The notes under the pieces: model-generated | The model's database searches: none | Told to the model about the DNA's origin: nothing | Seen by the model: only the letters and a program-made list of their open reading frames with translations | Part shown: positions 34,646 to 49,146 of the stretch, in pieces | How positions within the stretch are numbered: the first letter of the stretch is position 1 | How the letters are laid out: each line of letters opens with the position of its first letter | Program-made: the position numbers and the translations under genes | Source of the DNA: Lysinibacillus macroides | Lineage (GTDB): Bacteria; Bacillota; Bacilli; Bacillales_A; Planococcaceae | Direction: 5' to 3' | Length of the DNA stretch: 64,000 nucleotides | Assembly (NCBI RefSeq): GCF_001281525.1 | Contig: NZ_LGCI01000005.1 | Span: 566,554 to 630,553 of the forward strand

Positions 34646-34674
34646 TGTATATGTAGACAAATTTGCGAAGAAGG

Positions 34675-34709
34675 AAAACCAAGTCAGCAAATCACATGAC
34701 TTGGTTTTT
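34675..34709. terminator. Terminator at the left end of the element
   Basis: AAAACCAAGTCA pairs with TGACTTGGTTTT, T rich on both strands. It contains the recombinase stop codon and also would stop transcripts coming from the host promoter at 34334. Confidence 0.8.
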
Positions 34710-36401
34710 CATTGTCATGAACTGCTTCTTGTTTTGTTGAATAAATTCCAACATGTATTGATGTTGGTCTGCAAAATTAAATTGAATTGTAATTTCATTA
34801 TTTTCATGAATGTAAATCGTATCAATCAACTCAACCAACAAACCTCGGTCAAGTGTTTGGATATTTTGATATTTCAAAAATATTTGGAGATAGGGATGAT
34901 TCACGCCGATTCCTTTTTGAATAGTGGACATTTCTGTTTCTAAGTTAGCCATAACTTGTGTCACTTCATCTGCTTTCTGTTCAAATTTTGCTTTCATTCG
35001 CAAGTATTCAACTTTTGTAATATCTCCACATTTCCAGTCTATATATAGATTATCTGTAACGGCTGTTATTTTTTCTAATTCCTGTTGTTTAACCTTGTAT
35101 AACTGTTCTAATTGTTTCGATTTTGTCCGAATGATAGGCTGTTTGTTAATGGCTTTAATGATGGTTGCCATATCATCAATAAGTGCTATTTGTGCTTGAA
35201 TCGCTCGTAACACCGTTTCTGTGATGCTCTCTGTACTCATACTGTGTCGTGTGCATTTCTCTTTATGTTTAATCGCATAGGTAGAGCAAACATAGTAGGC
35301 ATATTCCTTCAATCCCGACTTTGTTTGTCTGCGATAGGACTTCCTTGTCATGCCCATCCCACAGTCTGGACAACGAAGGAAGCCAGAAAAAAGATGCACT
35401 TTCTTTTCAGATGGTGCGGTACGAGTATCTCGTTTTTGTAAACTTTGTGCTTTTTCAAACAAAGCCATCTCAATAATCGGGTCATGTGTGTTTTCTACTA
35501 CAAACCATTCATCTTTTGGTGGCGTGATTTTATCATGAATTTTATAACTAATTACACGTTGTTGACCCTGTACCATTGTCCCGATATACATTTTATTGAT
35601 TAAAATACGACCAATTGTGCCAATACTCCACATGCCATCATTTTTAGCATCATTGGGTGTTCGATGATTAAACCCTCTTTGCTGTTTATATTGAGAGGGT
35701 GTCGGAACGCCTAACTCATTTAAATGTTTGACAATCCCAGATTTACTCATCCCATCATAAACGAACCAATGGTAAATATTACGGACAACTTGTGCGGCTT
35801 TTTCATCAATGATGAGGTGATTTTTATTTTCAGGATTCTTTTTATAGCCGTAAGGCGCAAATGCGCCAATAAATTCACCATTTCGGCGCTTTGTGTCAAA
35901 AGTACGGCGAATATCGTTTGATATACGAGCAGCGTAACGGTCATTTAATAGTCCTGCCATTGGCACTTCTAATCCCTGTACGACCTCTGGATTTATATAG
36001 GTGTCAATAGCTGGGTCGCCTATGCTAATAAAGCGCACATTGTAGAGAGGGAATATTCTTTCTAAAAAATAGCCTTGGTCAGAATAATTTCGAAAAGCTC
36101 TCGCAAGCGTCTTACAAATAATACAGTCCACTTTACCTGTTTCAATATCTCGTATCATCCGTTGAAAATCTATTCGCTCGTAATCTGTCGTACCTGATTG
36201 TCCATCATCTATATAGTAGTCAACAAGTACATACTCACCAATGAAGGTATGGTCAAGGTACTCTTGAATGATTTTACGTTGATTCGTGACACTTAAACTT
36301 TCGTCATGTCCATCATCTTTAGATAAGCGAATGTAAATAGCAATCTTCCATATTTTTTGACGTGGCTTCTGAACTTTTGTATTTTTTCTAATGCGTGCCA
36401 T
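34692..36401 (-). CDS. Large serine recombinase (integrase of the element)
   Basis: About 569 residues from the ATG at 36401. Catalytic domain begins with KIAIYIRLSKDD (active Ser in YIRLS), continues through DDGQSGTTDYERIDFQRMI and CIICKTLARAFRNY; then a recombinase domain, a zinc ribbon (LRCPDCGMGMTRKS ... CSTYAIKHKEKC) and a long coiled coil (about 430-500). This layout is that of TndX/TnpX-type recombinases of conjugative transposons, which both insert and excise. Located at the left end next to the attachment site. Confidence 0.93.
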   Translation of the reverse strand: MARIRKNTKVQKPRQKIWKIAIYIRLSKDDGHDESLSVTNQRKIIQEYLDHTFIGEYVLVDYYIDDGQSGTTDYERIDFQRMIRDIETGKVDCIICKTLARAFRNYSDQGYFLERIFPLYNVRFISIGDPAIDTYINPEVVQGLEVPMAGLLNDRYAARISNDIRRTFDTKRRNGEFIGAFAPYGYKKNPENKNHLIIDEKAAQVVRNIYHWFVYDGMSKSGIVKHLNELGVPTPSQYKQQRGFNHRTPNDAKNDGMWSIGTIGRILINKMYIGTMVQGQQRVISYKIHDKITPPKDEWFVVENTHDPIIEMALFEKAQSLQKRDTRTAPSEKKVHLFSGFLRCPDCGMGMTRKSYRRQTKSGLKEYAYYVCSTYAIKHKEKCTRHSMSTESITETVLRAIQAQIALIDDMATIIKAINKQPIIRTKSKQLEQLYKVKQQELEKITAVTDNLYIDWKCGDITKVEYLRMKAKFEQKADEVTQVMANLETEMSTIQKGIGVNHPYLQIFLKYQNIQTLDRGLLVELIDTIYIHENNEITIQFNFADQHQYMLEFIQQNKKQFMTMKNQVM

Positions 36402-36456
36402 GTTCTTCCAATCCTCTATAATCACATCTTTATTATATCATTTATTGGACATAATT

Positions 36457-36714
36457 TCAGTGATGATAGCTTGAGAAATAGTGTTTTAGTTGCGTAGACA
36501 AGGCGTTTCCATCCTCTAAAAAACGCACATGAACGGTCACATTTCCACATAAGAATTGGTAAGGGTTTTGGATGTCTTGAAGATATTTTTCTAATCGCTC
36601 CAATGCAGGTAAATCATGCCGAATTTGGATATGTCGTATGTCTACAAGGTCTTGTGTTGATTGAGTTGTTTTTTCTTGTTGCATTGCTTGTTCAAGTCCT
36701 TTTAACGCTACCAT
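36457..36714 (-). CDS. Small conserved element protein, resembling DUF6870
   Basis: 85 residues with the pattern LVDIRHIQIRHDLPALERLEKYLQDIQNPYQFLCGNVTVHVRF. I recall this type of small protein next to serine recombinases of Firmicutes conjugative elements (DUF6870), but the assignment is from memory. It may be a directionality or accessory factor; unproven. GGAGGAAGGAAC precedes the ATG, and the recombinase follows closely, so they are probably co-transcribed. Confidence 0.7.
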   Translation of the reverse strand: MVALKGLEQAMQQEKTTQSTQDLVDIRHIQIRHDLPALERLEKYLQDIQNPYQFLCGNVTVHVRFLEDGNALSTQLKHYFSSYHH

Positions 36715-36895
36715 GTTCCTTCCTCCTTACATGTACCATTGTAAGCAATTAAAAATCAGATGGCTGCTGGTACAGCTCCACAGGTATTTCAACCTCTGCA
36801 AGTATTTCTTCCAGCCCTACTCATTGCCTGTGACGCTTTGAACGCTCGGACGGTGACTGTAGGGGCGTATCATTATCTTATGGATGGGTGATGGC

Positions 36896-37033
36896 TCACA
36901 ATCTACCATGATTGTGTAAGACAAAGTAAAGTTCGCTCGTTCCATTTAGGAAGTCGTGGCGTACTTGTCAGGTGGCTAACCATTCATAAAACGTATCTGA
37001 TTTTTTGTTATTCTGCATGATGTTTTCTTTCAT
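36896..37033 (-). other. Short reading frame with an internal TGA
   Basis: From the ATG at 37033 the minus strand reads MKENIMQNNKKSDTFYEWLAT, a TGA at 36970-36968, then in the same frame QVRHDFLNGTSELYFVLHNHGRL and TGA. Both parts look protein-like, so this may be a small gene broken by one stop. The rest of the stretch 36715-37102 shows no gene; its upstream part could hold an RNA, but I cannot support one. Confidence 0.35.
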
Positions 37034-37102
37034 GCTTTCTTTGTCAAAGAGCAAAACTTAATAAGCCTTTAAAGTGAAAGGGGAGGTGCTAACTATTTCC
37101 AT

Positions 37103-37342
37103 TTAAATTTTGAAACCTAAAATAGATTCCATTAGTTTTGAGTGCAAATAGTCACGCATGTCCTCGTCAATACCCCAATAAGTATTGCCTCGTTCATCCC
37201 TAAGTTTTCGCATTGATAAACTCGATATATAGCCATTATAATGCTCTATAACAGCTTGCATGGCTTCGGATTCTCCTTTTGTTGCAGCTACAATGACTGG
37301 ATAAGGTAATAAACCACGTTCATCATTAGTCATCGCATTCAT
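37103..37342 (-). CDS. Tn916 Orf8-like helix-turn-helix protein
   Basis: A 79-residue protein with the pattern PYPVIVAATKGESEAMQAVIEHYNGYISSLSMRKLRDE typical of Orf8 (HTH_16) of Tn916-family elements, thought to regulate the element or act together with the Orf7 sigma-like factor. Its ATG overlaps the stop of orf7. GGAGGTGCGTACTC precedes the start. Confidence 0.85.
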   Translation of the reverse strand: MNAMTNDERGLLPYPVIVAATKGESEAMQAVIEHYNGYISSLSMRKLRDERGNTYWGIDEDMRDYLHSKLMESILGFKI

Positions 37343-37760
37343 GAGTACGCACCTCCAAAAATTGTTTTAACAGCTTGAACGAGCTTGTTCGTCTATACTG
37401 AACTGTACTGCGTGAAATTTGAAGTAATTGCCCAATTTCTACGTCAGATAGTTGAAGGAAATAGTATAGAACAACAACAATACGCTTATTATCAGGGAGA
37501 GTAAGCAAGGCATCTTCAAGTAACTTGGCAGTAATTTTCTTGCCAGCCACTTGAAAAGTTTGTGTGTCCTCATTTTCCTCATAATTATCTACTGTATAAA
37601 GCTGGTTTTCTTCTTGGCGGGTGAGGTTAGAAAAGGTAGTTTCTTGTGATTGCTGTTTGCGCCTTTGATAATAAGTATTGATAGTTGCATTCTTCAATAC
37701 TCGTTTACAAAAGCCATTAAACGCACATCGCACTTGCCACTCTGTACGAATAGATTCCAT
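37326..37760 (-). CDS. Tn916 Orf7-like sigma factor
   Basis: About 144 residues from the ATG at 37760 (GGAGGGAGGTGAGCGC upstream). Region 2-like start (CAFNGFCKRVLKNATINTYYQRRKQQ) and a region 4 helix-turn-helix (ALLTLPDNKRIVVVLYYFLQLSDVEIGQLLQISRSTVQYRR). Orf7 in Tn916 controls transcription of the transfer genes. A damaged partial copy of this gene lies at 37985-38165. Confidence 0.85.
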   Translation of the reverse strand: MESIRTEWQVRCAFNGFCKRVLKNATINTYYQRRKQQSQETTFSNLTRQEENQLYTVDNYEENEDTQTFQVAGKKITAKLLEDALLTLPDNKRIVVVLYYFLQLSDVEIGQLLQISRSTVQYRRTSSFKLLKQFLEVRTHECDD

Positions 37761-37823
37761 GCGCTCACCTCCCTCCGCTATTGCAAAGGTGTCGGTGATT
37801 TCCCCTTTCATAACCTTCAACAA

Positions 37824-37984
37824 TTATTTCTCTGAAATGCCGAAAATAGGATTAATATTTTAAAAAATAATAAATAGGATACAAAAATTCCGAACAAAAT
37901 ATAGGTAGTTAGATATAAAATTTAGTATTCTAATATATACTAATTACACACCTGATTTAGTGATAATTTCTTTTTACAGTATGA
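37824..37984. other. AT-rich gap
   Basis: Upstream region of the orf7-like gene. Its promoter must lie here, but I see no convincing boxes and no gene. Confidence 0.4.
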
Positions 37985-38165
37985 AATTAAAAAAGTCTGT
38001 TTCATGTGATTACTGTTTGCGTCTATGATAATAAGTATTGATTGCTTCATGTTTCAATACTTTTTTACAAAAGCTATTAAACACGCAATGTATTTGCCAT
38101 TCAGTACGAATAAGTTTCATACACTCGACTCTCCCTACTATTGCAAATATATCATTGATTTCTTT
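37985..38165 (-). pseudogene. Degenerate duplicate of the orf7-like sigma gene (5' part)
   Basis: About 180 bases closely follow 37635-37800: both contain GATAATAAGTATTGAT, TTACAAAAGC-ATTAAAC and CTATTGCAAA, in the same order and orientation. The copy has many substitutions and a disrupted frame and lacks the region 4 part and the strong ribosome binding site. It lies directly before the cargo operon, so it marks the junction at which the cargo was added. Confidence 0.8.
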
Positions 38166-38212
38166 TTTATTTTCACCACAATAATACATATAAATCCAAA
38201 TTTTATCCTATA

Positions 38213-38242
38213 TTGACAATGACTACAGCATAATAGTAATAT
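38213..38242 (+). promoter_or_regulatory. Promoter of the blaI-blaR1-like operon
   Basis: TTGACA at 38213-38218 and TAATAT at 38237-38242, spacer 18 bases. The first BlaI-type dyad lies in the spacer and the second directly after the -10 box. Confidence 0.6.
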
Positions 38243-38262
38243 TATAACTATAGCATTGTAGT
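38222..38262. promoter_or_regulatory. Two BlaI-type operator dyads
   Basis: ACTACAGCATAATAGT at 38222-38237 and ACTATAGCATTGTAGT at 38247-38262 share ACTA-N8-TAGT with the same central GCAT. BlaI/MecI repressors bind TACA-TGTA-type dyads; the second site with CTATA-N4-TGTAG is close to this. The same dyad recurs at 39865 before the secreted-protein operon. Confidence 0.7.
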
Positions 38263-38273
38263 ATAGGAAGTAG

Positions 38274-38651
38274 GTGAATAATTTGCCAAAATTTCAAAGT
38301 TTGACTGATACAGAGATGGAAGTAATGCAAATCATTTGGAAACTGAATCGTTCTGTACAATCAAGTGAATTGTTGACTATTTTTTCAGAAAAAGGTTGGA
38401 AAGGACAAACTATTGCTACCTTTTTATCAAGATTAGTAGATAAAGGTTTATTGTCTGTAACAAAAGGAAAAGGGCGTGCAAATATTTATAATCCACGTTT
38501 ATCCTTTAAAGAATATAAAAAATGGGAAGCTCAAAGTTTATTGGACACAATGTATCAAGGGTCTGTGAAAACCTTTTTAGCAACACTTTACGATGAGAAG
38601 GTAACTACTGAAGAATTAGATGAACTGAAAAAATGGTTTTCAGATAAGTAG
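38274..38651 (+). CDS. BlaI/MecI-family repressor
   Basis: 125 residues with the BlaI winged helix: LTDTEMEVMQIIWKLNRSVQSSELLTIFSEKGWKGQTIATFLSRLVDKGLLSVTKGKGRANIYNP has the order of helices known from BlaI, with the C-terminal dimerisation helices and the usual protease-cleavage region. Start GTG at 38274 or TTG at 38283. It precedes the BlaR1-like gene by 8 bases. Two dyads lie in its promoter. Confidence 0.9.
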   Translation: MNNLPKFQSLTDTEMEVMQIIWKLNRSVQSSELLTIFSEKGWKGQTIATFLSRLVDKGLLSVTKGKGRANIYNPRLSFKEYKKWEAQSLLDTMYQGSVKTFLATLYDEKVTTEELDELKKWFSDK

Positions 38652-38659
38652 GTGTATAG

Positions 38660-39817
38660 ATGAATGAGTGGCTAAATTTTATGATTACTTTATCAGTTGC
38701 TGGCAGTTGTGTTTCTATATTTGCATACAGTATTACCGTTATTTCAAGAGAAATATTTACCGCAAAATGGCATTACAGGAACAGGAAATTAGCCCTTTCC
38801 TTCTTCCTGTTACCTTTCTTTTTAATTGCAGAAGTAGCTCTCTTGTTTAAAAAAGATAATCAGCTCATGCAATTAAATTCGCTACCTTTTATACAACAAA
38901 ATACAATCTTATTGACAGAAGCTTTTGTGCAAATGGTATTTATTATCTGGTTGACAGGTGTATTTATAACAAGTATATGGTTCTTGTTTGTGTATCAAAA
39001 ATTATATCGAGAGTTGCGAAGAAACTGTGTGGCAGTCCCTAAAGAACATAAAGTATGGGGAATTTTAGCACAGCTACAAAATGATATGAATGTGAAGCGA
39101 GAGATTAACCTTGTTTATTGTCAAGCGAATATTAGCCCCTTTTTAGTAGGAGTGTTCAAATCAACGATTGTGCTGCCCATATATGCAATTCAAAATGATG
39201 AGTTAACAATGATTCTTAAACATGAATTAATACATGATAAGAAAAAAGACTTATGGATGAAAAGAGCAGGAATTCTAGCAAGAATTCTTCATTGGTACAA
39301 TCCACTGATTTATTTTTTACAAAAAGAATTAACAAAGTGGTGTGAGCTTTCATGTGATGAGGACGTTGTGCTAAAAATGTCTCATACAGAGAGAAAAATG
39401 TATGGCGAAATGATTTTAAATATGATGCAACGTGCAAATCAACAGCCAAATTCACCCTTTTCAGTTTCTCTTTTTACCAAAGGACAAATGAAGTTAAAAA
39501 AGCGATTAATAAGGATATTAGAAGCACAACAGGTAAGCAAGTCGATTGTTATTACAGCTATTACACTATTTTTAGTTTTTGGAAGTGTTGGGATTGTCAG
39601 TGCTACATTCGTATACAAAAATATACAATCTATTTCGGAAAATAAAAATATGGAAATACAATTAGAATATGTTGATATTGATAAAAGAGAAATAGATAAG
39701 AATAGCTCAAAGACAATTTCTGTTAAATTGTCAGATAAGTCTAAATTTTCCGAAGAAGAGTGGTCGAAAATTTTGAAACAAATTGAAAATAATGAAGTAA
39801 TTTTGGAAGAGAAATAA
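38660..39817 (+). CDS. BlaR1-like M56 membrane protease without penicillin-binding sensor
   Basis: 385 residues. Four spans (about 8-30, 42-62, 95-116 and 297-317) and the M56 core with the zinc motif ILKHELIHDKKKD near residue 192 and the LSCDEDVV segment. In BlaR1 an extracellular penicillin-binding domain of about 250 residues follows the last span. Here only about 68 polar residues follow (EIQLEYVDIDKREIDKN ... NNEVILEEK), so the ligand is not expected to be a beta-lactam. On sensing, it presumably leads to cleavage of the BlaI-like repressor. Confidence 0.88.
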   Translation: MNEWLNFMITLSVAGSCVSIFAYSITVISREIFTAKWHYRNRKLALSFFLLPFFLIAEVALLFKKDNQLMQLNSLPFIQQNTILLTEAFVQMVFIIWLTGVFITSIWFLFVYQKLYRELRRNCVAVPKEHKVWGILAQLQNDMNVKREINLVYCQANISPFLVGVFKSTIVLPIYAIQNDELTMILKHELIHDKKKDLWMKRAGILARILHWYNPLIYFLQKELTKWCELSCDEDVVLKMSHTERKMYGEMILNMMQRANQQPNSPFSVSLFTKGQMKLKKRLIRILEAQQVSKSIVITAITLFLVFGSVGIVSATFVYKNIQSISENKNMEIQLEYVDIDKREIDKNSSKTISVKLSDKSKFSEEEWSKILKQIENNEVILEEK

Positions 39818-39822
39818 AATAA

Positions 39823-39859
39823 GAAGTTCTGTATTTATACTTTTTATACAGAACTTCTC
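39823..39859. terminator. Stem-loop after the BlaR1-like gene
   Basis: AGAAGTTCTGTAT and ATACAGAACTTCT form a perfect 13-bp stem about 5 bases after the stop. The plus strand lacks a good T run, so termination may be incomplete. Confidence 0.6.
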
Positions 39860-39864
39860 ACTTA

Positions 39865-39880
39865 ACTATGTGTATATAGT
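39865..39880. promoter_or_regulatory. BlaI-type dyad before the secreted-protein operon
   Basis: ACTATGTGTATATAGT has the ACTA-N8-TAGT form of the two dyads before blaI and the same length. It places the downstream operon under the same repressor, by inference. Confidence 0.55.
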
Positions 39881-39991
39881 TAGATATTTCCTTAATTTTT
39901 AAAGTAATTTTTTTCTCTAAAAGTAATTATTTTAAAAATAATATATATTTTTCATTTTAAATTGATAAATAATGAAGGGAGGTGATAAGAA

Positions 39992-40483
39992 ATGGTAAAG
40001 AGAAGTTTGGTAGCAATGTTTAGTTTAGCTTTGATAGTATTGTTAGGTCATAGTGCTGTAAGTGCTACAGAGATTTCAGTAACTGATTTAGAGGATGTTA
40101 ATTCAGCAATAGAGCTTGTTGAGGCAAAAGGTGACCTCATAAAAGAAGAAGGTTTTAAAGGAATAACACCCTTTTTAAGTGTACAAGTATATTCTTCTTC
40201 TTTAGGAGTAAATCAATATGTTAAGTCAAATACATCTTACTCTGTAAAAAAAGGTGATGCAATAAACATTACGAATCTAACATGGAATCCAACAGGACAA
40301 CAAGTTCAAGTAGGGCTTATTCATGCAACTACAGGTGCTCAATATTGGTCAGGTAATTTTTCTGGAGGAAGTATGAGTAGCGGTTATATCTCTGTACCTT
40401 CTACTGGAAATTATTATCTTGCTATTGGTACGCCATCTACAAACACTATGAATATTAATGTTAGTGGATTATTTAGTTTTTAA
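39992..40483 (+). CDS. Small secreted protein, unknown
   Basis: 163 residues with a signal peptide (KRSLVAMFSLALIVLLGHSAVSA). The mature part has an acidic helix (EDVNSAIELVEAKGDLIKEE) and then a beta-rich domain with regular Gly-Ser-Thr patterns (TWNPTGQQVQVGLIHATTGAQYW ... SGYISVPSTGNYYLAIG). No family recognised; the shape suggests a beta sandwich. GGGAGGTGATAAGAA precedes the ATG. First gene of the cargo operon after the BlaI-type dyad. Confidence 0.8.
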   Translation: MVKRSLVAMFSLALIVLLGHSAVSATEISVTDLEDVNSAIELVEAKGDLIKEEGFKGITPFLSVQVYSSSLGVNQYVKSNTSYSVKKGDAINITNLTWNPTGQQVQVGLIHATTGAQYWSGNFSGGSMSSGYISVPSTGNYYLAIGTPSTNTMNINVSGLFSF

Positions 40484-40531
40484 ATAATTAGTAATTTGAA
40501 AAATAATTTAATTGAAAAGGAGAATCTTATT

Positions 40532-41080
40532 ATGAAAAAATTAGTTTCATTTTTCTCAATTTTTGCATTGTTCTTAGTATTGTTTGTGCCACAAAACGCA
40601 TCGGCAGCAACTACTTACAGCGCTGGTGCAAGTTCACCATCTACTATTTATGCTTATAGCCTCAATACTTGGTCTGGACAAGGTTTCTGGGATTTAAGAA
40701 ATGTAAGCTCTATTCCTGACACAGCCGTTGTGACAGCAGCTAAATTAAATTGGAGTATTTGTACAACTTGTGGTATGTCTTATGATACAACGGTTGTTGG
40801 TCTATTTAAGCAAGATGGGTCTGGCTATCAGATGGATTCAGGTTTTTACAATTATAATTTTGGTGGTCAACCTGTTAAACAAAATTGGTTTGCTAGTTTT
40901 AAATCATCAAAATTCAACGGCTCAGGTTATATACGACCTGTTTTAACATTATTATGGGAAGATTCTACAAGTTTAACATCTGGTACACTTATGTTAAGTG
41001 ATTCTCCTAGTGATGGTCTTACTGGGCAAGCTAATGTTGTTGAAAGCGAAGAATTAATATATGAACTAGTGGAGGAGTAA
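40532..41080 (+). CDS. Secreted protein A (intact copy of the repeated unit)
   Basis: About 182 residues from the ATG with AAAAGGAGAATCTTATT upstream; a longer frame starting at 40496 has no such site. Signal peptide KKLVSFFSIFALFLVLFVPQNASA, then a Ser/Thr/Tyr-rich mature part without a known domain. It has one CTTC pair and ends in an acidic tail (ESEELIYELVEE). The last codons GAG GAG TAA provide the ribosome binding site of the family B gene behind it. Fragments of the same gene stand before the other two B copies. Function unknown. Confidence 0.8.
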   Translation: MKKLVSFFSIFALFLVLFVPQNASAATTYSAGASSPSTIYAYSLNTWSGQGFWDLRNVSSIPDTAVVTAAKLNWSICTTCGMSYDTTVVGLFKQDGSGYQMDSGFYNYNFGGQPVKQNWFASFKSSKFNGSGYIRPVLTLLWEDSTSLTSGTLMLSDSPSDGLTGQANVVESEELIYELVEE

Positions 41081-41083
41081 TTG

Positions 41084-41716
41084 ATGAAAGTTACTTTTAA
41101 CGCAATTAACAATTTGGGAACAGTTTCTACATTTCAAACACAGCAAAGTAAACAACCTTTTAATATCGAAGCAAATGAAATAGATGCTAAACAAGCGAAA
41201 GTCGAAGCATCACGTGAAAAATATGCAGAATTTGTACAATCTTGTAATGCCATTTATCAGGGAGCAACACCCACTCAACTTATGGATAAACAGACAAATT
41301 CTATCAATATTACTAGCGGTGTGTACTATCATTTAGGCTCAGTCAATGGGAAACCCCTTAATGGCACAGCTTTAACTGGTGGTGGCTTTAATTCTAACTT
41401 TAGCCCAATGATACAATGGACAGGAGTTGGTACAAAGGTTACACCCGAACAAGAAGCCGCTTTTAGAATACACCAGTCCTATTCACAAGTTGAACGTCAA
41501 GAAGCAAATGAGCTTGTGGCTGTCTTTATGAGCCTTTCTCGGTTAGCGGAAGGAAAAAAATCTGTGGCTAGTATGAATGATGATGTAATGTTTAAACAAC
41601 ACTTCCCTAAGTTTGCAGAAGGAGTAGGACTTGACTTAAGTAAGCCTTTCACTATTAACGGCAAGTCATTTATGTATTCAAAAGGAGTATTACAGGCAGT
41701 AAATAACGAAGTGTAG
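41084..41716 (+). CDS. Family B protein, element copy 1
   Basis: 210 residues, same family as the chromosomal protein at 4228. Conserved blocks GVYYHLG, NGKPLNGTALTGGGFNSNFSPMI, RQEANELVAVFMSLSRLAEGKKSV and KPFTINGKSF are present. No signal peptide, no membrane span. GTGGAGGAG lies before the ATG at 41084 inside the end of gene A, so A and B are translationally coupled. Function unknown. Confidence 0.85.
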   Translation: MKVTFNAINNLGTVSTFQTQQSKQPFNIEANEIDAKQAKVEASREKYAEFVQSCNAIYQGATPTQLMDKQTNSINITSGVYYHLGSVNGKPLNGTALTGGGFNSNFSPMIQWTGVGTKVTPEQEAAFRIHQSYSQVERQEANELVAVFMSLSRLAEGKKSVASMNDDVMFKQHFPKFAEGVGLDLSKPFTINGKSFMYSKGVLQAVNNEV

Positions 41717-41779
41717 TTGATAAATTGCTGGGGCATAAATATATGTTCCAGCTTTAACGTTATGCTTATCAAGCAAATA

Positions 41780-41881
41780 CTTTTATGGGAAGATTCAGCA
41801 AGTGCAAAATCTGGTACAATCTTGCTAAATGAATCATCTGATGAGATTTTTATTGAAATAGAAGATTTAGGAGAGGAATAA
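41780..41881 (+). pseudogene. C-terminal remnant of gene A before B copy 2
   Basis: Reads LLWEDSASAKSGTILLNESSDE then IFIEIEDLGEE and stop, corresponding to the last 40 residues of protein A. No start codon or upstream part remains. The final GAG GAA TAA still supplies the ribosome binding site for the next B gene. Confidence 0.85.
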
Positions 41882-41884
41882 TTT

Positions 41885-42517
41885 ATGGAGGTAAAACCAA
41901 TTTCATTTAAAAATCTAGGAGCTATTGCTAGTTTTCAAGTACACCAGAATCAAAAGCCTTTTCAAATGGAAGAAATGAAAACATATTATAAACAAGATAA
42001 AATTGAAGCAACACGTAAAAGTTATGCTGAATTAGTACAATCCTATAACAATATTCGTAGAGAAATAAATCCAACGAAATTCGTTAATGAGCAAACCAAT
42101 TCTATTGATATTACGAATGGTGTGTACTATCATCTAGGCTTAGTAAATGGAAAACCTCTGAATGGGACACTTTTAACTGGTGGCGGCTTTAATTCAAATT
42201 TCAGTCCTATGATATGGGATAATCCAAACTCTAATGTTGTAACACAAGAGCAACGAGAAGCCCTTAAAATACATCGTTCATATTCACAAGTTGAACGTCA
42301 AGAAGCCAATGAACTTGTGGCTGTCTTTATGAGCCTTTCTCGGTTAGCTGAAGGAAAAAAATCTGTGGATAGTATGAATAATGATGCTATGTTTATGCAA
42401 CATTTCCCTAAATTCGCTAAAGGGATAGGGCTTGATTTAGGTCAACCGTTTACTATCAATGGAAAATCGTTTACTTATTTGCAAGGAACATTGCAAATGA
42501 CAGATACAGAAGATTAA
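41885..42517 (+). CDS. Family B protein, element copy 2
   Basis: 210 residues. The N-terminal half differs most from the other copies (NQKPFQMEEMKTYYKQDKI ... YNNIRREINPTKF). The C-terminal third shares a 123-base stretch identical to copy 3 (from 42292). GTYYHLG-type and NSNFSPMIW blocks are kept, so it looks functional. Located 3 bases after the gene A remnant. Confidence 0.85.
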   Translation: MEVKPISFKNLGAIASFQVHQNQKPFQMEEMKTYYKQDKIEATRKSYAELVQSYNNIRREINPTKFVNEQTNSIDITNGVYYHLGLVNGKPLNGTLLTGGGFNSNFSPMIWDNPNSNVVTQEQREALKIHRSYSQVERQEANELVAVFMSLSRLAEGKKSVDSMNNDAMFMQHFPKFAKGIGLDLGQPFTINGKSFTYLQGTLQMTDTED

Positions 42518-42552
42518 CCGATAAATCAGCTTTATATGGATATTAAATAATC

Positions 42553-42599
42553 AGAGCTATCATCAATAGTCAATCAGATTTACTATTAATGATAGCTCT
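42553..42599. other. Stem-loop between B copy 2 and the next gene A remnant
   Basis: AGAGCTATCAT-C-AATAGT pairs with ACTATT-A-ATGATAGCTCT. It ends exactly where homology to gene A begins. No T run follows, so it may be an attenuator or a trace of the rearrangement. Confidence 0.6.
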
Positions 42600-42600
42600 A

Positions 42601-42914
42601 AGTTGTGGTATGACTTATGATACAACGAACATTGCTCTATTTAAACAGAATGGTTCTGGTTATCAGATGGATTCAGATTTTACAATTCTAATTTTGCTGG
42701 TCAACCTGTAAGACAAAAATTGGCTAGTTTCAAATCATCAAAATTCAACAGCTCATGTTATATACAACCTGTTTTAACTATATTATGGGAAGATTCTACG
42801 AGTGCGAAATCTGGTTCGTTTATGTTAAATGAATCACCTAATGGAATTCTTGTTGATAAAGATAGCCTTGTTGAAAAGCAAGAAGTAACGTTGGTTAATT
42901 TAAAGGAGGAATAA
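42601..42914 (+). pseudogene. Damaged gene A before B copy 3
   Basis: Homology to protein A starts without a start codon at SCGMTYDTTNIALFKQNGSGYQMDSDF, is shifted by deletion, continues as YNSNFAGQPVRQKLASFKSSKFN and runs to the acidic end NLKEE. Lost are the signal peptide and about 60 residues. The stop region AAAGGAGGAATAA is the ribosome binding site of the next gene. Confidence 0.88.
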
Positions 42915-42917
42915 CCG

Positions 42918-43550
42918 ATGACAGTTATAGTGAATTCAATACAGAATCTAGGTTGGGTTGCTAATTCTCAAACCAATCAAACCTCTCAATCCTTTAAAAT
43001 AGGAGAAGGTGAAATAGATTCTAAAAAAGCGGAGATTGAAACCTCACGTAAAGAATATGCAGAATTCATACAATCTAGCAGTTCTATTTATCAAGGGGCA
43101 ACTCCAACTCAACTTGTCAACAAACAAACAAATTCTATTAATATTGTAGCAGGTGTTTACTATAATTTAGGAACAGTAAATGGAAAACCTTTGAATGGTA
43201 CGCCTTTAGCAAGCGGAGGGTTCAACTCGAATTTTAGCCCTAAAATATGGAAAGTGCCAGGTTCGTCCATTGTAACACCAGAGCAAGAAGCGGCACTCAA
43301 AATGCGACAATCCTACTCGCTACCTGAACGTCAAGAAGCCAATGAACTTGTGGCTGTCTTTATGAGCCTTTCTCGGTTAGCTGAAGGAAAAAAATCTGTG
43401 GATAGTATGAATAATGATGCTATGTTTATGCAACATTTCCCTAAATTTGCTAAAGGGATAGGGCTTGATTTAAGCCAACCGTTTACTATTAATGGTAAAT
43501 CATTCACTTATTCACAAGGAACATTGCAAACGACATCTATAGAAGATTGA
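42918..43550 (+). CDS. Family B protein, element copy 3
   Basis: 210 residues. Keeps GVYYNLG, NGKPLNG, SGGFNSNFSPKIW and RQEANELVAVFMSLSRLAEG. Its N-terminal third is different again (NQTSQSFKIGEGEIDSKKAEIE). The C-terminal part is almost identical to copy 2. Function unknown. Confidence 0.85.
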   Translation: MTVIVNSIQNLGWVANSQTNQTSQSFKIGEGEIDSKKAEIETSRKEYAEFIQSSSSIYQGATPTQLVNKQTNSINIVAGVYYNLGTVNGKPLNGTPLASGGFNSNFSPKIWKVPGSSIVTPEQEAALKMRQSYSLPERQEANELVAVFMSLSRLAEGKKSVDSMNNDAMFMQHFPKFAKGIGLDLSQPFTINGKSFTYSQGTLQTTSIED

Positions 43551-43657
43551 CAAATAAATATGTTATACATGACAAGTATTAAAATTAACTAAAGGTAATA
43601 GTTTAGTATCCATACTAGATATTAAAAATAATTAATCAGACAAGGAGATACAGCAAA

Positions 43658-44758
43658 ATGAATAAGAAAATTCTTAAAGCAGTTGTCTTATCATCAATGT
43701 TAATTTCCAGTGCCGTAATCCCATTTGGAACAAGTGCAAGTGCAAATACAAATTTAATTGAGGTAGAACAGAGTGAAAGCTGGAAACTTCCTGTTTTCGA
43801 TAGTATTAAAAATTATTTAGACATTAAAGTTGAAAATGGTTTTACAGAACTTCAAGGGTATGAAATTGGAAAAGTATTAGCACTTAAAGATAGAACAGAA
43901 AAAGAAAATAAATATTATGTTTCAGTGGTGGATAAAAATAAAGAAACTCTTGGGTATGCTGTTTTAGATGGTAGTAATAACTATGAAGTTATTGAATTTG
44001 GTCTGGGAAAAGAAGAGCCTTTAAAAGATGCTAATCACAATATCTCTTATTATGGTCCATTGTCCTATGCTGAAAATATCGGAAACGGAAAAGTGAAAGA
44101 TTTACTATTAAATCAAGAGTTTGATAAAGCAACTTTGATTAACGAAATAAATGAGGTGGAACAACCTACAGATGAATACCAAGTTTCGCCTGCTACTATC
44201 ATAAATTATGCATATAAATACATTAGTGGCGTTCCTGATTACCAACAGTCCAGTATTACAACAATGATAAATACTTGTGTGCCAGTTTCTGCTGCAAATA
44301 TTATAATGTATTGGGATGCAAACGGTTATCCTAATATGGTTTCAACAAATAATTGGATTAATGTTGCAAATAGAATAGCACAAATCATGCTTCATACTAA
44401 TGTTAATGGAGTATTGCCACAGTATGTAACGCCGGGAATGAGAGTCTATTTCGATGAGCATGGTTATACAGGCTTTGGTGTAACTCGTGATACATCTCCT
44501 ACTTTTAGTGAAGCTCAAACTATTGTCAACGCTGGTCATCCGTCTCTTTTAGGATTAGCTAATTACACAGTTATTAGCCCTAATGCTACTGGTAAGCATA
44601 TGGTTACACTTGTAGGTTTTGAAACTTATTATGACACATCAACACAAAAGTGGTCTCAACAAGTTATTGTTCATGATAATTGGGATTCGACAGGAACTCA
44701 AGTATGGTTGAAATGGTCTAGCTTACCAGTTACGGATATTTGGGAAATATCTAATTAA
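43658..44758 (+). CDS. Secreted cysteine peptidase-like protein, C39_2 type
   Basis: 366 residues with a signal peptide (KKILKAVVLSSMLISSAVIPFGTSASA). Residues 30-180 look like a pro-domain with a PepSY-like pattern. Residues 195-366 fit a papain-like fold: nucleophile Cys in NTCVPVSAANIIMYW, His in GKHMVTLVGFE and Asp in IVHDNWD, the order used by C39-like (C39_2) peptidases. Either it is a protease, or an inactive relative; all three residues are kept, so activity is likely. CAAGGAGATACAGCAAA precedes the ATG. Last gene of the plus-strand cargo. Confidence 0.82.
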   Translation: MNKKILKAVVLSSMLISSAVIPFGTSASANTNLIEVEQSESWKLPVFDSIKNYLDIKVENGFTELQGYEIGKVLALKDRTEKENKYYVSVVDKNKETLGYAVLDGSNNYEVIEFGLGKEEPLKDANHNISYYGPLSYAENIGNGKVKDLLLNQEFDKATLINEINEVEQPTDEYQVSPATIINYAYKYISGVPDYQQSSITTMINTCVPVSAANIIMYWDANGYPNMVSTNNWINVANRIAQIMLHTNVNGVLPQYVTPGMRVYFDEHGYTGFGVTRDTSPTFSEAQTIVNAGHPSLLGLANYTVISPNATGKHMVTLVGFETYYDTSTQKWSQQVIVHDNWDSTGTQVWLKWSSLPVTDIWEISN

Positions 44759-44777
44759 AGGGTAATTGTTGAAAACT

Positions 44778-44827
44778 AAAATGCGCTAACAGTCAATTTT
44801 CATCATATTGATTGTTAGCGCATTTTT
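44778..44827. terminator. Bidirectional terminator
   Basis: AAAATGCGCTAACA pairs with TGTTAGCGCATTTT, with a second short pairing TCAAT/ATTGA inside. Lies between the peptidase gene and the convergent lipoprotein gene. Confidence 0.85.
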
Positions 44828-44850
44828 AGTATGTAGTTTGTATCAATTCG

Positions 44851-45288
44851 TTAATCGTGTTGTTTTCCATAGAGTTCCTTTGCTTTCTTTTGTAATTCTT
44901 CGTTACTCTCTTCCACTCCCTTTTTATCTGCAAGGTTGAATATACCTGAGTAGGCACTTGATACGCCCTTAGAACCGACTATTTCTCCTTCATATTCATA
45001 TATATACGCTGTATAATTTTTACCTTCAAGGTCTTTTTCATTTAATTGATAATTTGTTACAGTCAATTCTTTTCCGATATACTGCTCCATGAAAGTTATA
45101 TTAGCAGCTCTATCAAGTTTGAGAATTTCTGGTGGAATATCACCTATTATGATTTGTTCGCTCGAATGAAATGATTCAATTGTCCATCCTAAATCTTCTA
45201 TATAAACAAGATGTTCTTTATCAATATTTTCATTGGTACAGGCAACTAGGATAAATGTAAAACTTAAAATAATCATTAGTTTTTTAAT
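44851..45288 (-). CDS. Small lipoprotein, unknown, probable ATT start
   Basis: About 145 residues. Starting from the ATT at 45288 the protein reads KKLMIILSFTFILVACTN, a standard lipoprotein signal with the lipobox VAC. GGGAGGGATATTTT lies at the right distance from the ATT, whereas the ATG at 45276 would be too far away and would drop the Lys pair. The mature part is acidic with no known domain. Located next to the peptidase on the opposite strand. Confidence 0.7.
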   Translation of the reverse strand: MKKLMIILSFTFILVACTNENIDKEHLVYIEDLGWTIESFHSSEQIIIGDIPPEILKLDRAANITFMEQYIGKELTVTNYQLNEKDLEGKNYTAYIYEYEGEIVGSKGVSSAYSGIFNLADKKGVEESNEELQKKAKELYGKQHD

Positions 45289-45608
45289 AAAATATCCCTC
45301 CCTTGTAATTAAAAAACTTCTTAATAATTACTCTATTATAACAAAATAGCGGAATATAGACAAATTCTCAGCTATAAATCTGAGAGGGAAAATGGAATTT
45401 TGCTTTTTATTTTAAGAAGTATTTTGATTTCTTTCGCCACTGTAAATTCGGCAGTCCAACTAAGAAAAGGAACATGTCAGATTCTACATAACACGTCCTT
45501 TTCTTAGTTTCTTTCACTACATGACAATGACAAGAACCATCAAAATTTTTTGTAAGCAGGCTATCGCCACAAAAATTGTTGAAAGAGCAGCATAAAGCTG
45601 CTCCTTTT
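45289..45608. other. Gap with two stem-loops
   Basis: No gene accepted. AAGAAAAGGA pairs with TCCTTTTCTT across about 45461-45510, a long imperfect hairpin. At 45582-45612, GAGCAGC-ATAA-AGCTGCTC followed by TTTTTT is a terminator, probably serving the XRE gene on the minus strand as well. Confidence 0.5.
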
Positions 45609-45839
45609 TTATGGTTGTTCATTTTCGTTTTCTTCAATGATTTCCAATAAGTCGCTAATTTCGCAATTGAGTGCTTTGCATAATGCGCCTAATGTGTCAC
45701 GTTGATATTGTTTGGATTCATCATTGTACATTTTACGAACGGTTTCAAAGTTTACTCCTGATAGTTCAGCACATTTTCTGATTGAAATTCCTTTGTCCTC
45801 TAAAATACTTTTTAAGTTTGATTTAGCTCTCATTCCCAT
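45609..45839 (-). CDS. XRE-family repressor, Cro/CI type
   Basis: 76 residues, a single helix-turn-helix (NLKSILEDKGISIRKCAELSGVNFETVRKMYNDESKQYQRDTLGALCKALNCEISDLLEI). Similar position to Orf9 of Tn916, a transcriptional repressor, but small and not clearly the same. Divergent from the small gene at 45979. Confidence 0.85.
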   Translation of the reverse strand: MGMRAKSNLKSILEDKGISIRKCAELSGVNFETVRKMYNDESKQYQRDTLGALCKALNCEISDLLEIIEENENEQP

Positions 45840-45978
45840 GTTCTCACCTCACTTTTATTGTATCAAAAATAGTCATGAATTAACGGTAAAATATAGTTGA
45901 CTATAAAATGAAGTCAGTGTTATGATTATGACAGTGAAATGCAGTCGTTTTAAAAAGCTACTAAAGGGAGGGAACAAT

Positions 45979-46185
45979 ATGCCAATAATCATTAGTACAG
46001 AGATAAATGGGTTTCATGAGATAAGAGGTACTTATAATAAGCAAGCAAAAACAATCACCATTGAAAGCCTAGTTGTCTTATCTATAGGTAGATTAATAGA
46101 ACTAGGGAAGGTGACTTTAACAAAAGAGGAAATGATGATGGTGTTAAAATTTTTTTATGATAGTGAGGATATAGAGCTGTCATAA
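45979..46185 (+). CDS. Small hypothetical protein
   Basis: 68 residues from the ATG with AAAGGGAGGGAACAAT upstream. A longer frame from 45922 has no ribosome binding site. No family recognised; beta strands followed by a helix (TLTKEEMMMVLKFFYDSEDIEL). Divergent from the XRE repressor, so probably its target. Confidence 0.65.
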   Translation: MPIIISTEINGFHEIRGTYNKQAKTITIESLVVLSIGRLIELGKVTLTKEEMMMVLKFFYDSEDIELS

Positions 46186-46216
46186 GGATTAAGATGGGCT
46201 GGGCAGGAGAAAAAAT

Positions 46217-46251
46217 ATAAAAAGGGCAACCAGTTGAGGTCGCCCTTTTTT
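46217..46251 (+). terminator. Terminator of the small plus-strand gene
   Basis: AAAGGGC pairs with GCCCTTT, loop of 14 bases, followed by TTTTT. Confidence 0.8.
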
Positions 46252-46342
46252 GTGTGGACAGCCATCTAATAAATTGAACGGCGATGCTCAATATCTAAAA
46301 CTAAGCAAATAATGAATATTTATATTTCATTAATAAAAAATT

Positions 46343-46423
46343 GAAAACACCTCACAAGTACAATGTGTAGCGCTTGTTAGGTGTTTTTTAGTGAATCACA
46401 TTACAACATAAATGGTTGTTATA
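46343..46423. repeat. Direct repeat copy 1 (with terminator)
   Basis: About 80 bases that recur at 47131-47209 with roughly 85 per cent identity, for example CAATGTGTAGCGCTTGTTAGGTGTTTTTT is common over its length (shown only by its parts CAATGTGTAGCG and CTTGTTAGGTG). The part AACACCT-C-ACAAG ... CTTGT-T-AGGTGTT is a strong stem with T runs on both strands. Confidence 0.8.
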
Positions 46424-46487
46424 CCGCCGCTTTAAGCAGAAGAAGATAGTTAAATTTCTGATTCTTCAAAGAAAAAGAGGGTGAGTT

Positions 46488-47042
46488 CTATGCAAAGAAA
46501 TTAGTTCTAATTTGTTCGATTCTGGAAGCCATACCTCCCATATTTGTAAGTATGTTTATTGGAATTTGTTGCTGATATGAAGATTTTGCTTTAGCTTTAA
46601 CAGCGTTGTTGTTTCCAACTTGTGTCTTATCTATTACTTTATCTTGTTTCAATGTAGAATTTGCTATGGCATCAATAAGAATGTTAGTTGAGGACGAGAT
46701 AGAACCGTCACTTGTTAAACCAATGCTATTTATTAGTTGCTTCTGTACAGTGGATAAATTATTGTCCTTATCTAATTTAGTTTCAAGAAGATTTAGAAAA
46801 CCATTCTCACTGTACAGGTCTAATATACTTACTTTAGGTTCTTTTAATAACGACTGTCTTTGTATATCAGATAAGTTTTTTATATTTGAACTATTAAAAA
46901 GAGTATCTGTTAATACATTTTTGAAGGCAGTTTTTTGTTCTTCTGATAAATTTAATTTTTTGTTTTCAGACAATTCTTGAAGGAGTTTTTGTGTGAAAAG
47001 TATATTTTCTGTAGAAAGAGAATTTACATTCAATGTTATCAT
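46488..47042 (-). CDS. Hypothetical protein between direct repeats
   Basis: 184 residues, rich in Asn, Ser, Lys and Leu; mostly helical, no signal peptide or membrane span. It begins with ITLNVNSLSTENILF and ends in a Gln/Ile-rich segment (SSYQQQIPINILTNMGGMASRIEQIRTNFF). Not recognised. The N terminus, with a short strand followed by a polar stretch, is similar in character to the proteins at 4228 and 4889, but I see no clear sequence homology. AAGAAAGGAAGT precedes the ATG. Flanked by an 80-base direct repeat. Confidence 0.65.
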   Translation of the reverse strand: MITLNVNSLSTENILFTQKLLQELSENKKLNLSEEQKTAFKNVLTDTLFNSSNIKNLSDIQRQSLLKEPKVSILDLYSENGFLNLLETKLDKDNNLSTVQKQLINSIGLTSDGSISSSTNILIDAIANSTLKQDKVIDKTQVGNNNAVKAKAKSSYQQQIPINILTNMGGMASRIEQIRTNFFA

Positions 47043-47130
47043 ACTTCCTTTCTTGAGATATTCATATCTTCTTCTATGAATATTATCGTCAATTATTAGA
47101 GATATTTACTGTATAATTTGCAAAAATTAA

Positions 47131-47209
47131 AAACATTTAACAAATACAATGTGTAGCGCTTGTTAGGTGTTTTTTCGTGTATCACATCACAATATAAATG
47201 GTTGTAACC
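47131..47209. repeat. Direct repeat copy 2 (with weak terminator)
   Basis: Second copy of the 80-base repeat, directly after the orf13-like gene. Its stem is weaker than in copy 1. Each copy follows a minus-strand gene, consistent with a duplicated terminator. Confidence 0.8.
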
Positions 47210-47217
47210 AAATGTAT

Positions 47218-48117
47218 TTATTTCACAATCATCCAATTTACATCTTTCTCTAAAATTAATTCATATTGTGATAGTTGTGTGGCTTTTGTGATTTCATCTA
47301 AATACTTGACTGTTACCCACACATGCACTTGCTGTCCAGACTGTTGATAAATCGGATTGAGAAGTGTTGAAAATAGATACTTTTTACCAATGGGTGGTAA
47401 GGCATTATTTTGTACATAATAAGCGAGTTCTTTTTCAGTTGCAACTGGATAAAAGGCAAAGAACGTTTCTAAAAATTCAGTGACTTCCTTTATTATATTA
47501 GAATCCACCGAACCGTTATTTTCAGGCTTTTTCGGTATATAGGCTGATTTTTTGGGTGAATCCCATAACGTAGGGTTTTTTATTAGGACAACATTGCCAT
47601 CTGCATCTTGATAAAGGTAAATGCGATAGGTTGATTGTACCCATCTTATCTCTTTATCTTCTGTAATTTTTTGTTTTAGTGAATACACAACCGCAAAATG
47701 ATTGTCTTGTTCTGCCGTTATAGACCAAATGTTGATGTCCTCTACACTAGAGCTAGTTGGAATATCAGCTCGAATGGTATCGGCATTTAACATTTGCAAT
47801 TCTTCTGTCAAATAGTTGTTAATTTTGTCTGCTCGGTACGCAATGGCTTCTTTATTATTTTGCCATGTGTAATAGTCTTTCACAAAGTTTTTTGTAAAGC
47901 TCTCTATTGTGTGGGTGTCAATAATGCTTGTTTCAATCACTTTTGTTTCGTGTATGGTGTGTTTATCAATGGCAGTAAAGTTTTTGTAAATACCAAAAGC
48001 GAGGCTACTAATTAATAGTAGCCATAGCACCAGCACTGTTTTTTTACGTGTACCAATCGCCATCACTTTTCTTTTCTTCGACTTTTTTGCTTGTCCTTTT
48101 TTGTTAAATAGCTTCAT
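47218..48117 (-). CDS. tcpC: Conjugal transfer protein TcpC (Tn916 Orf13-like)
   Basis: 299 residues. A basic N terminus (KKGQAKKSKKRKVMAIGTRKK), one span at about 28-46, then two NTF2-like outer domains. Bitopic component of the Gram-positive type IV secretion channel, a structural relative of VirB8. Last gene of the transfer operon. Confidence 0.88.
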   Translation of the reverse strand: MKLFNKKGQAKKSKKRKVMAIGTRKKTVLVLWLLLISSLAFGIYKNFTAIDKHTIHETKVIETSIIDTHTIESFTKNFVKDYYTWQNNKEAIAYRADKINNYLTEELQMLNADTIRADIPTSSSVEDINIWSITAEQDNHFAVVYSLKQKITEDKEIRWVQSTYRIYLYQDADGNVVLIKNPTLWDSPKKSAYIPKKPENNGSVDSNIIKEVTEFLETFFAFYPVATEKELAYYVQNNALPPIGKKYLFSTLLNPIYQQSGQQVHVWVTVKYLDEITKATQLSQYELILEKDVNWMIVK

Positions 48118-48132
48118 AGTATCAAATCCTTT

Positions 48133-49146
48133 CTATCGTTTAATTCGTCCAGCACCGATTAAATGCTTTTGCCAATAAGGTGAGGTTAAATCATCGTAAC
48201 CAATTGGGTCGCCTGCGTTATACATTTGATTATTTCCAAGGTAAATACCTACATGAGTTACATATGTTCCTGCATCGTATGTTGAGTGGAAAAAGACCAA
48301 ATCGCCTGCTTTTGCTTGTGCTAGTGGAATATGTTCAGTGGCATCATATTGTTGTTGTGCTGTTCTTGGTAAGTGGATGTCTGCCTTGCGATAGCTCCAT
48401 TGTGTTAATCCACTGCAATCAAAAGAGGTAGTTGGGTTATCACCGCCAAATACATAGCGCCATCCCTCATATTTTAGTGCCTCATTCATGACAAGCTGAA
48501 CGAGTTCATTATCAAATTGAATGGGGGTAGTGAAGTATTGACGGACTAACTGGACGTAAAACATATTGCCATAACGGTAACGCCAGCCCCCATTTTGCTG
48601 TACAGCGATGGGGTTTGAATAGGTTACTTTGATACCGTTTGCTCGTTCTTTTGCAAAATCTTCCGCTAGTTTAAAGCTGTATTGCTTGCCTCGGTTAGCT
48701 ACATAACCAATAAAACCACCGCCATAGTTATAGGCTTGAATGACCGTATCATCATCCACACCATAGCGCTTTGCCGATTGTAATAAGTCGGCAAAGTATC
48801 GAACACCTTGCTGAATCGAGGCTTCTGTATCTAACGTGTTTGGTGGAAGCCCCAATGATTCGCTTGATTGCATGACATCGGGTAAGCGACCTCCACTTTC
48901 AACCTCGATAATGGCAAGGAGAATCGAAACATATTCACTAATGCCATACTCCTGTGCATATTTTTCAACCATTGCTTGATGCTGTAAGGTATCTGCTGAT
49001 ACCGACAGCGTACTTCCATCACTAAACGATTTATAAGAAGGTGCATCATCTGAAATAAAAATTGCCACAAAAGCCAGTAGCCCCATAAAAGCTGAACATC
49101 CTACGCCTCCAAGAATGAGTGTTATTTTCCATTTTAAAATTTTCAT
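48133..49146 (-). CDS. Bifunctional wall hydrolase CwlT-like (Tn916 Orf14)
   Basis: 337 residues. One N-terminal span (about 8-30), a lysozyme-like muramidase domain (SILLAIIEVESGGRLPDVMQSSESLG, catalytic Glu in IEVESGG) and a C-terminal NlpC/P60 peptidase (FDCSGLTQWSYRKADIHLPRTAQQQY ... HVGIYLGNNQMYNAG, Cys and His present). It cuts peptidoglycan to let the transfer channel pass. Overlaps the next gene upstream by 4 bases. Confidence 0.95.
   Translation of the reverse strand: MKILKWKITLILGGVGCSAFMGLLAFVAIFISDDAPSYKSFSDGSTLSVSADTLQHQAMVEKYAQEYGISEYVSILLAIIEVESGGRLPDVMQSSESLGLPPNTLDTEASIQQGVRYFADLLQSAKRYGVDDDTVIQAYNYGGGFIGYVANRGKQYSFKLAEDFAKERANGIKVTYSNPIAVQQNGGWRYRYGNMFYVQLVRQYFTTPIQFDNELVQLVMNEALKYEGWRYVFGGDNPTTSFDCSGLTQWSYRKADIHLPRTAQQQYDATEHIPLAQAKAGDLVFFHSTYDAGTYVTHVGIYLGNNQMYNAGDPIGYDDLTSPYWQKHLIGAGRIKR

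Follow-up and report, generated by a model that had tools for sequence, protein, structure and literature searches.

Gene Content of the Cargo Region

The window analysed here is a 64,000-nucleotide stretch of the 4.87 Mb genome of Lysinibacillus macroides (G000:C1:566554-630553). It contains a Tn916-type integrative conjugative element at approximately 34646..59882 (both ends approximate), recognised from its transfer-gene families and from the ABC-ATPase gene that it breaks. The cargo of the element comprises blaI, blaR1, S1, A, B1, B2, B3 and a gene for a C39-like peptidase, all on the plus strand, and the transfer genes are all on the minus strand. Our reading, to which we give a probability of roughly 0.4, is that the cargo slot holds a BlaI/BlaR1-type proteolytic switch together with modular exoprotein genes that are possibly under its control.

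The BlaI-like repressor (38274..38651, +; 125 amino acids (aa)) matched Pfam PF03965 (Penicillinase_R) at 2.6e-25, with 89.4 bits against a cut-off of 22.6, and fell below the NCBIfam equivalog cut-offs. A promoter scan placed a TTGACA-18-TAATAT site before the gene (38213-38242, +), and pattern matching placed two ACTA-N8-TAGT dyads there (38222-38237 and 38247-38262, +), the first of which the promoter-like site overlaps. The BlaR1-like M56 membrane metallopeptidase (38660..39817, +) matched PF05569 (1.7e-42, 146 bits), and its HELIH motif, of the HEXXH form, was seen in the alignment. The gene is followed by a terminator-like inverted repeat with 13-base arms and no T run (39822..39858, +), and then by a single ACTA-N8-TAGT dyad (39865..39880, +), a candidate operator for S1. 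S1 (39992..40483, +; 163 aa) and A (40532..41080, +; 182 aa, with a conserved CxxC) encode putative secreted proteins, and B1 (41081..41716, +; 211 aa) encodes a cytosolic-looking one. A remnant of the C-terminal part of A (41750..41878, +; tblastn 1e-10 with the A protein of genome G001) precedes B2 (41885..42517, +; 210 aa), and a frame-broken A remnant (42592..42911, +; tblastn 3e-38) precedes B3 (42918..43550, +; 210 aa). The last cargo gene encodes a putatively secreted C39-like cysteine peptidase (43658..44758, +; 366 aa) with an 88% identical relative in genome G013. The B3 protein is 93% identical to the B of Metalysinibacillus jejuensis (G055; contig NZ_QAFW01000085.1), a member of the same family as the host.

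In the family libraries, S1, A and the three B proteins gave only sub-threshold matches to unrelated families, and the C39_2 call of the peptidase barely passes (24.1 bits against a cut-off of 24). The signal peptides of S1, A and the C39-like peptidase were judged by eye, not by a prediction program. An earlier note on this DNA had proposed blaI-like and blaR1-like cargo on a Tn916-type element, oriented against the transfer genes, and the Pfam matches and strands agree with it. Its statement that no beta-lactamase or penicillin-binding protein (PBP) gene lies beside the pair was borne out as well; no beta-lactamase or PBP/transpeptidase family was found among the ten proteins scanned from 38-46 kb, a scan that does not exclude targets in trans. 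Its triplicated family B corresponds to the three B genes; the repeated unit is, however, better described as A-B, because decayed A copies sit between the B genes, and members of family B are present beyond the element too, at 4228-4848 of the window and on the host genome's contig C8. Compared in 20-codon blocks, B2 and B3 share 87-100% identity in the final four blocks and 56-77% in those before, a pattern that is a sign of gene conversion.

The chromosomal B lies in a stretch (4228-5599) where it follows riboflavin genes and is itself followed by a gene for a family-less 236-aa protein, X0. Genome G005 also has an X0 relative, close to a B gene that is incomplete (L023).

Predicted BlaI Operators

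The exact ACTA-N8-TAGT pattern occurs five times in the window (38222, 38247, 39865, 5850 and 8515) against 0.93 expected, and at 57 places in the whole genome; the same pattern read backwards occurs at 191. The two dyads at blaI are 25 bp apart, overlapping and following the TTGACA-18-TAATAT site. Two dyads at this position arose in 0/5000 local shuffles, against 1/5000 for the M. jejuensis stretch. The promoter match is weak on its own, the scan having returned 40 promoter-like sites overall against 37.3 expected in shuffles.

Similar footprints were present before related blaI genes. The blaI of M. jejuensis contig C83 (73% identical) is preceded by four exact ACTA-N8-TAGT copies, 23 bp apart. 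An orphan blaI on contig C8 of the host genome (69% identical) is preceded by one exact and one near-match dyad, also 23 bp apart; it was located through two of the 54 genome-wide places of the pattern (at most one mismatch), which adjoin the genome's only other Penicillinase_R gene. Four sister blaI genes (M. jejuensis C185, a Kurthia plasmid, G242 and G213) are preceded by pairs of ACTACA-N3-TGTAGT, 26-27 bp apart, and the BlaI proteins of C185 and the Kurthia plasmid are identical in the alignment. Neither dyad form was found in the stretches read at the remoter blaI genes of G220 and G232. Because the footprints are kept before related blaI genes, the blaI-proximal dyads are well supported as predicted BlaI operators, and between the blaI lineages the dyads seem to have changed in spacing, N7 in some and N8 in others, a difference that is directly testable. 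Published BlaI sites are of a similar kind. The dyads of BlaI, MecI and CopY have TACA/TGTA cores (PMC7253601), from which the ACTA-N8-TAGT dyad differs. The BlaI proteins of Clostridium thermocellum use paired GTCTAT/GACTAT repeats (PMC8457756).

The BlaI/BlaR1 Pair and Its Relatives

No C-terminal penicillin-binding sensor domain was found in the BlaR1-like protein, which is 385 aa long, compared with a length of 585 for the BlaR1 models of NCBIfam. These models match it only to about position 360, far below cut-off, and no transpeptidase Pfam match was obtained. The C-terminal tail is about 60 residues long, and its end is kept in three relatives, two of which are nearly the same protein. 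At a threshold of E <= 1e-30, BlaR1-like proteins were found in 13/261 genomes of the family, the host's own genome being included here and in all genome counts; the set searched at the level of the order also comprised 261 genomes. Beyond the window, identity above 40% was seen only in two M. jejuensis copies.

The orphan blaI of contig C8 (L093, 6159-6606) carries its operator-like dyads without a neighbouring blaR1, and cross-regulation between it and the pair on the element is possible. A decayed A considered beside this gene was dropped, as no convincing match was obtained. In two genomes of the genus, a pair with a longer BlaR1-like protein (512 aa) has a gene for a putatively secreted protein of 165 aa directly after it (L088, 6425-8980; L091, 6871-9379); in this lineage, a different dyad lies upstream of blaI.

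The Cassette in Other Genomes

Intact A was found in 4/261 genomes of the family, with remnants only in a fifth, and B in 7/261. The C39-like peptidase was found in 8/101 genomes, four of the matches being strong, and S1 in 4/101, two of them weak. In M. jejuensis, one end of contig C83 carries blaI-blaR1 and then the apparent first S1 codons, up to the start of an insertion sequence (IS)-like stretch. Contig C213 carries IS-like sequence together with the remainder of S1, as well as A, B and a further pair, A' (DUF4879) and B'. The contig ends do not overlap and the IS ends are not unique; the two ends probably meet, which would give the order blaI-blaR1-S1-A-B. S1 there seems broken by an insertion sequence, which we take to be IS630-like. 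In G005, A, B and C39 remnants come, in that order, directly after a pair of a distant blaI/blaR1 lineage (BlaI 27.5% and BlaR1 31-35% identical). In G012 and G013, and not in G015, another putative secreted protein follows blaR1 at the corresponding place.

The cargo genes also occur apart from the pair. The layout is A-B-B-(A remnant)-B in G001 and A-B in G195, in both cases without blaI/blaR1 or S1 alongside, and a relic of the element in G013 carries C39 without blaI/blaR1, S1, A or B. These arrangements weigh against control of the cargo by the pair, and the cassette varies in its make-up from place to place. The tie between the pair and the cassette that the earlier note had drawn is upheld in part, by the probable S1-A-B of M. 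jejuensis and the remnants of G005.

When GTDB contigs were searched with B3, 66 pattern-matched stretches yielded one confirmed locus, that of M. jejuensis. No relatives of A or B were found in the plasmid collection, and when viral contigs were searched with the B profile, none of the 36 pattern-matched stretches was confirmed.

Possible Control of the Exoprotein Genes

The dyad at 39865 is exact and lies about 48 bp past blaR1, in a 174-bp spacer of 82% A+T. An exact dyad appeared in the spacer in 65/5000 local shuffles, and an equal or better position weight matrix (PWM) score in 6/2000. Several observations weigh against its function. Its PWM score (13.1) is below those of the six training sites (13.6-19.8) and of a site within an open reading frame at 5850 (13.4). 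A strict promoter scan over the dyad returned nothing, and a loosened scan returned an 8/12 promoter match with a 15-nt spacer (TTAACT..GATATT, from 39862). No partner dyad was found 23-27 bp to either side, and none was found in the blaR1-S1 spacer of M. jejuensis (best PWM score 9.3), where constraint may be relaxed because S1 seems broken. In C. thermocellum, targets seem as a rule to have two repeats, although single repeats were still bound in vitro (PMC8457756). The 39865 dyad is not established as a working operator, and that BlaI controls the secreted proteins is no more than a suggestion. The three dyads that the earlier note had joined into one regulon are exact in position and credible as operators at blaI; the link to S1 did not hold to the same degree, and two further copies lie in the window (5850 and 8515).

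It is quite possible, if short of an even chance, that blaI/blaR1 is an autoregulated, independently mobile pair that merely adjoins the exoprotein genes, with S1, A, B and C39 regulated on their own and the pair perhaps acting on targets in trans. Three related pairs (M. jejuensis C185, the Kurthia plasmid and G242) have a transposase or resolvase gene directly 3' (the Kurthia transposase alone carries an annotation, Tn3 family, and the remaining two genes are named by resemblance). No relatives of S1, A, B or C39 were found near them in the stretches read, and each pair has two dyads, both at blaI. Secreted-looking N-termini occur within a few kilobases of two of these pairs (L055 and L057) and are not relatives of the cargo proteins; no beta-lactamase gene was recognised beside the pairs of L055, L057 and L061. 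The orphan blaI without blaR1 on contig C8 fits independent movement too, as do the single, unconserved dyad at S1 and the cargo genes that are found elsewhere without the pair. However, a dyad such as that at S1 would seldom arise by chance in this spacer, the order blaI-blaR1-S1 seems to be retained in a second genus (M. jejuensis), and a different blaI/blaR1 lineage, in G005, also lies upstream of A-B-C39 remnants.

We consider it unlikely that blaI-blaR1-S1-A-B is one operon read from the blaI promoter, with the 39865 dyad incidental. No strong promoter was found between blaR1 and S1, and the hairpin there has no T run. In G012 and G013, two of the four loci read of the longer blaI/blaR1 lineage, the gene for the putative secreted 165-aa protein lies about 100-140 bp past blaR1; no blaI-type repeat is present in that gap, and G013 has another repeat there (TACTTC-N6-GAAGTA). 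Such an operon would, however, have to be read through the hairpin, which parts blaR1 from S1 in the window and is present in a diverged form in M. jejuensis.

With a switch that may control the exoprotein genes as our preferred reading, the following sequence of events is proposed. BlaI dimers would bind the two dyads at the blaI promoter and repress blaI and blaR1, a step strongly inferred from the dyads. By analogy with the family, a surface signal would be sensed by the membrane part of BlaR1 and its short C-terminal tail, in the absence of a penicillin-binding domain, and the activated M56 protease would bring about the loss of BlaI. Derepression would raise blaI and blaR1 and plausibly, perhaps even probably, S1-A-B1 as well, through the 39865 dyad or by read-through past the hairpin. 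A would then act as a secreted effector-like protein, and B as a cytosolic partner, possibly immunity-like, that is retained and multiplied even where A decays. The C39-like peptidase gene would be a separate acquisition that may be expressed alone. A more specific version, in which the conserved BlaR1 tail is a short surface sensor that turns on export of A and S1 as effectors, the multiplied mosaic B genes give self-protection, and the orphan chromosomal B genes are protection that has outlasted A, appears distinctly unlikely.

Proteins A and B

A and B are adjacent genes for a secreted protein (by eye) and a cytosolic partner, as is looked for in toxin-immunity pairs, and this adjacency was found in 4/4 genomes with intact A. 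The A proteins of the three other genomes are 54-73% identical to the window copy and are secreted-looking (by eye), with the conserved CxxC. B has no signal peptide (by eye); its structure model has a mean predicted local distance difference test (pLDDT) score of 69, with residues 1-33 below 50 and a confident C-terminal half. B was found in 15 places (12 complete, 2 incomplete and 1 remnant). Four of the complete genes follow intact A and four follow decayed A (B2, B3, C8 and G008, the last by a weak 25-residue match at 3e-4). The other four have no detected A (4228 of the window, G005, G010 and, by layout, one of the G001 genes, its second B, which stands immediately after another B).

Pairwise ratios of nonsynonymous to synonymous divergence (dN/dS) of B were 0.10-0.40 in 55/66 pairs with finite dS, many of them with saturated dS, and B is judged from these ratios to be under purifying selection. 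The persistence of B in more places than A, together with this constraint, is consistent with, and not proof of, a secreted effector with a cytosolic partner. This asymmetry is expected of an immunity-like partner, and any useful cytosolic role of B would give the same. Against the effector-partner reading, intact A is also constrained (dN/dS 0.14-0.41, 6 pairs), and the fold of B gave 43 matches in the PDB at E <= 10, none of them at E <= 0.001. The structure model of A was discarded (mean pLDDT 33), and A had no family or PDB sequence match that would point to a known toxin fold or activity. In the PDB sequence search, the A and B profiles gave one chance match each (E ~0.3), and C39 gave none at E <= 1. 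With no family for A or B, the persistence asymmetry offers a concrete and cheap test of the effector-partner hypothesis.

That the B proteins are instead effectors exported by the flagellar type III apparatus is highly improbable; their low-confidence N-terminus (residues 1-33) is flagellin-like by eye, Asn/Ser-rich and apparently disordered, and the export gate family PF00771 was found in 7/7 genomes searched, all of them B-bearing, but flagella are expected in most of the family, which weakens that test, and no family match supports flagellar export.

A second pair of a secreted and a cytosolic protein, DUF4879 and a 158-aa protein (A' and B'), lies beside B in M. jejuensis (L029, 2330-3427) and G008 (L026, 8745-9722); the DUF4879 gene is broken in G008. 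Common ancestry of B with the 158-aa B' or the 236-aa X0 was rejected, with hhalign probabilities of 0.3 and 0.2 percent, respectively. No B' was found among phages, and A' matched three phage records at ~38%.

Relation to Known Systems

Beta-lactam switching is the best-known role of BlaI/BlaR1-type pairs, and a few cases with other outputs are known. The pair described here has in common with BlaI/BlaR1 and MecI/MecR1 a repressor adjoining an M56 membrane protease and dyads at the blaI promoter; it differs from them in having no PBP-like sensor domain, and neither a beta-lactamase nor a PBP was among the ten proteins scanned. The bla divergon of Bacillus licheniformis has three operators (PMC3305447). 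PetR/PetP of cyanobacteria is likewise a BlaI/BlaR1-type pair with a non-beta-lactam output (PMC7896320); it governs the swap of plastocyanin and cytochrome c6, a matter of photosynthetic electron carriers and copper, whereas the genes adjoining the pair here are mobile exoprotein genes. BlaI_0696 and BlaI_1845 of C. thermocellum recognise GTCTAT/GACTAT half-sites and control their own operons, which include hypothetical proteins; their targets have two inverted-repeat pairs each (PMC8457756), in contrast to the one dyad at S1. Control of non-beta-lactam outputs by such pairs is thus already known, and the cargo includes protein families for which no described match was obtained; A and B had no match in the family libraries searched. 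Within an open-access subset of the literature, no description of BlaR1-controlled secreted cargo on a Tn916-type element was found among the matches listed, YolA and YolB were not found together, and the sole match for a Tn916-type element in Lysinibacillus was a review on plastic waste. A pair without a penicillin sensor travels here with putatively secreted proteins at the place where Tn916 relatives hold resistance genes.

The Mobile Element and Its Insertion Site

The gene order of Tn916 was used for comparison. The element has the Tn916-family hallmarks of Tcp transfer genes, ArdA, Rep_trans and Orf7/8-like genes. By family, its genes encode a serine recombinase-like protein, DUF6870, HTH_16, a sigma-70-region-4 protein, TcpC, lysozyme/NlpC, an AAA_10 ATPase, TcpE, ArdA, Rep_trans and a weakly FtsK/TraB-like coupling protein, the matches of which are below the NCBIfam cut-offs. 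Tcp, lysozyme-NlpC, AAA_10, ArdA, Rep_trans, sigma-like and HTH_16 genes, and cargo placed between the transfer and recombination modules, are common to the Tn916 family. The element differs from Tn916 in its large serine-recombinase-like gene, in its exoprotein and blaI/blaR1 cargo and in its insertion in the Walker A codons of an ABC-ATPase gene. No Tn916-family tyrosine integrase with Xis was found; the gene at that end (34692-36425) matches serine recombinase models (CcrB model 4e-37, below that model's cut-off), as in Tn5397-type relatives. The end of the transfer module (46488-47042) encodes a 184-aa protein without a Pfam family.

A partial second copy of the sigma-like gene of the element (37983..38168, -; 61% over 62 aa) lies directly upstream of blaI and is possibly a scar of cargo insertion. 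A piece of the sigma-like gene also flanks the cargo in G008 and, from a by-eye reading of an antisense open reading frame, in M. jejuensis.

The left half of the broken ABC-ATPase gene is at 34526-34645 (..GPNGA), and the right half starts at 59883 (APNGAGKTT..). The relic in G013 belongs to the same element (recombinase 90%, C39 88% and lipoprotein 83% identical) and sits at the same Walker A codons in another ABC-ATPase gene. The two genomes thus have the insertion in Walker A codons, each in a different ATPase gene, and a conserved coding motif seems to be used as the attachment site. The insertion borders can be seen at 34631-34645 and 59883-59911 of the window and, in L087, near 7190 and 13700.

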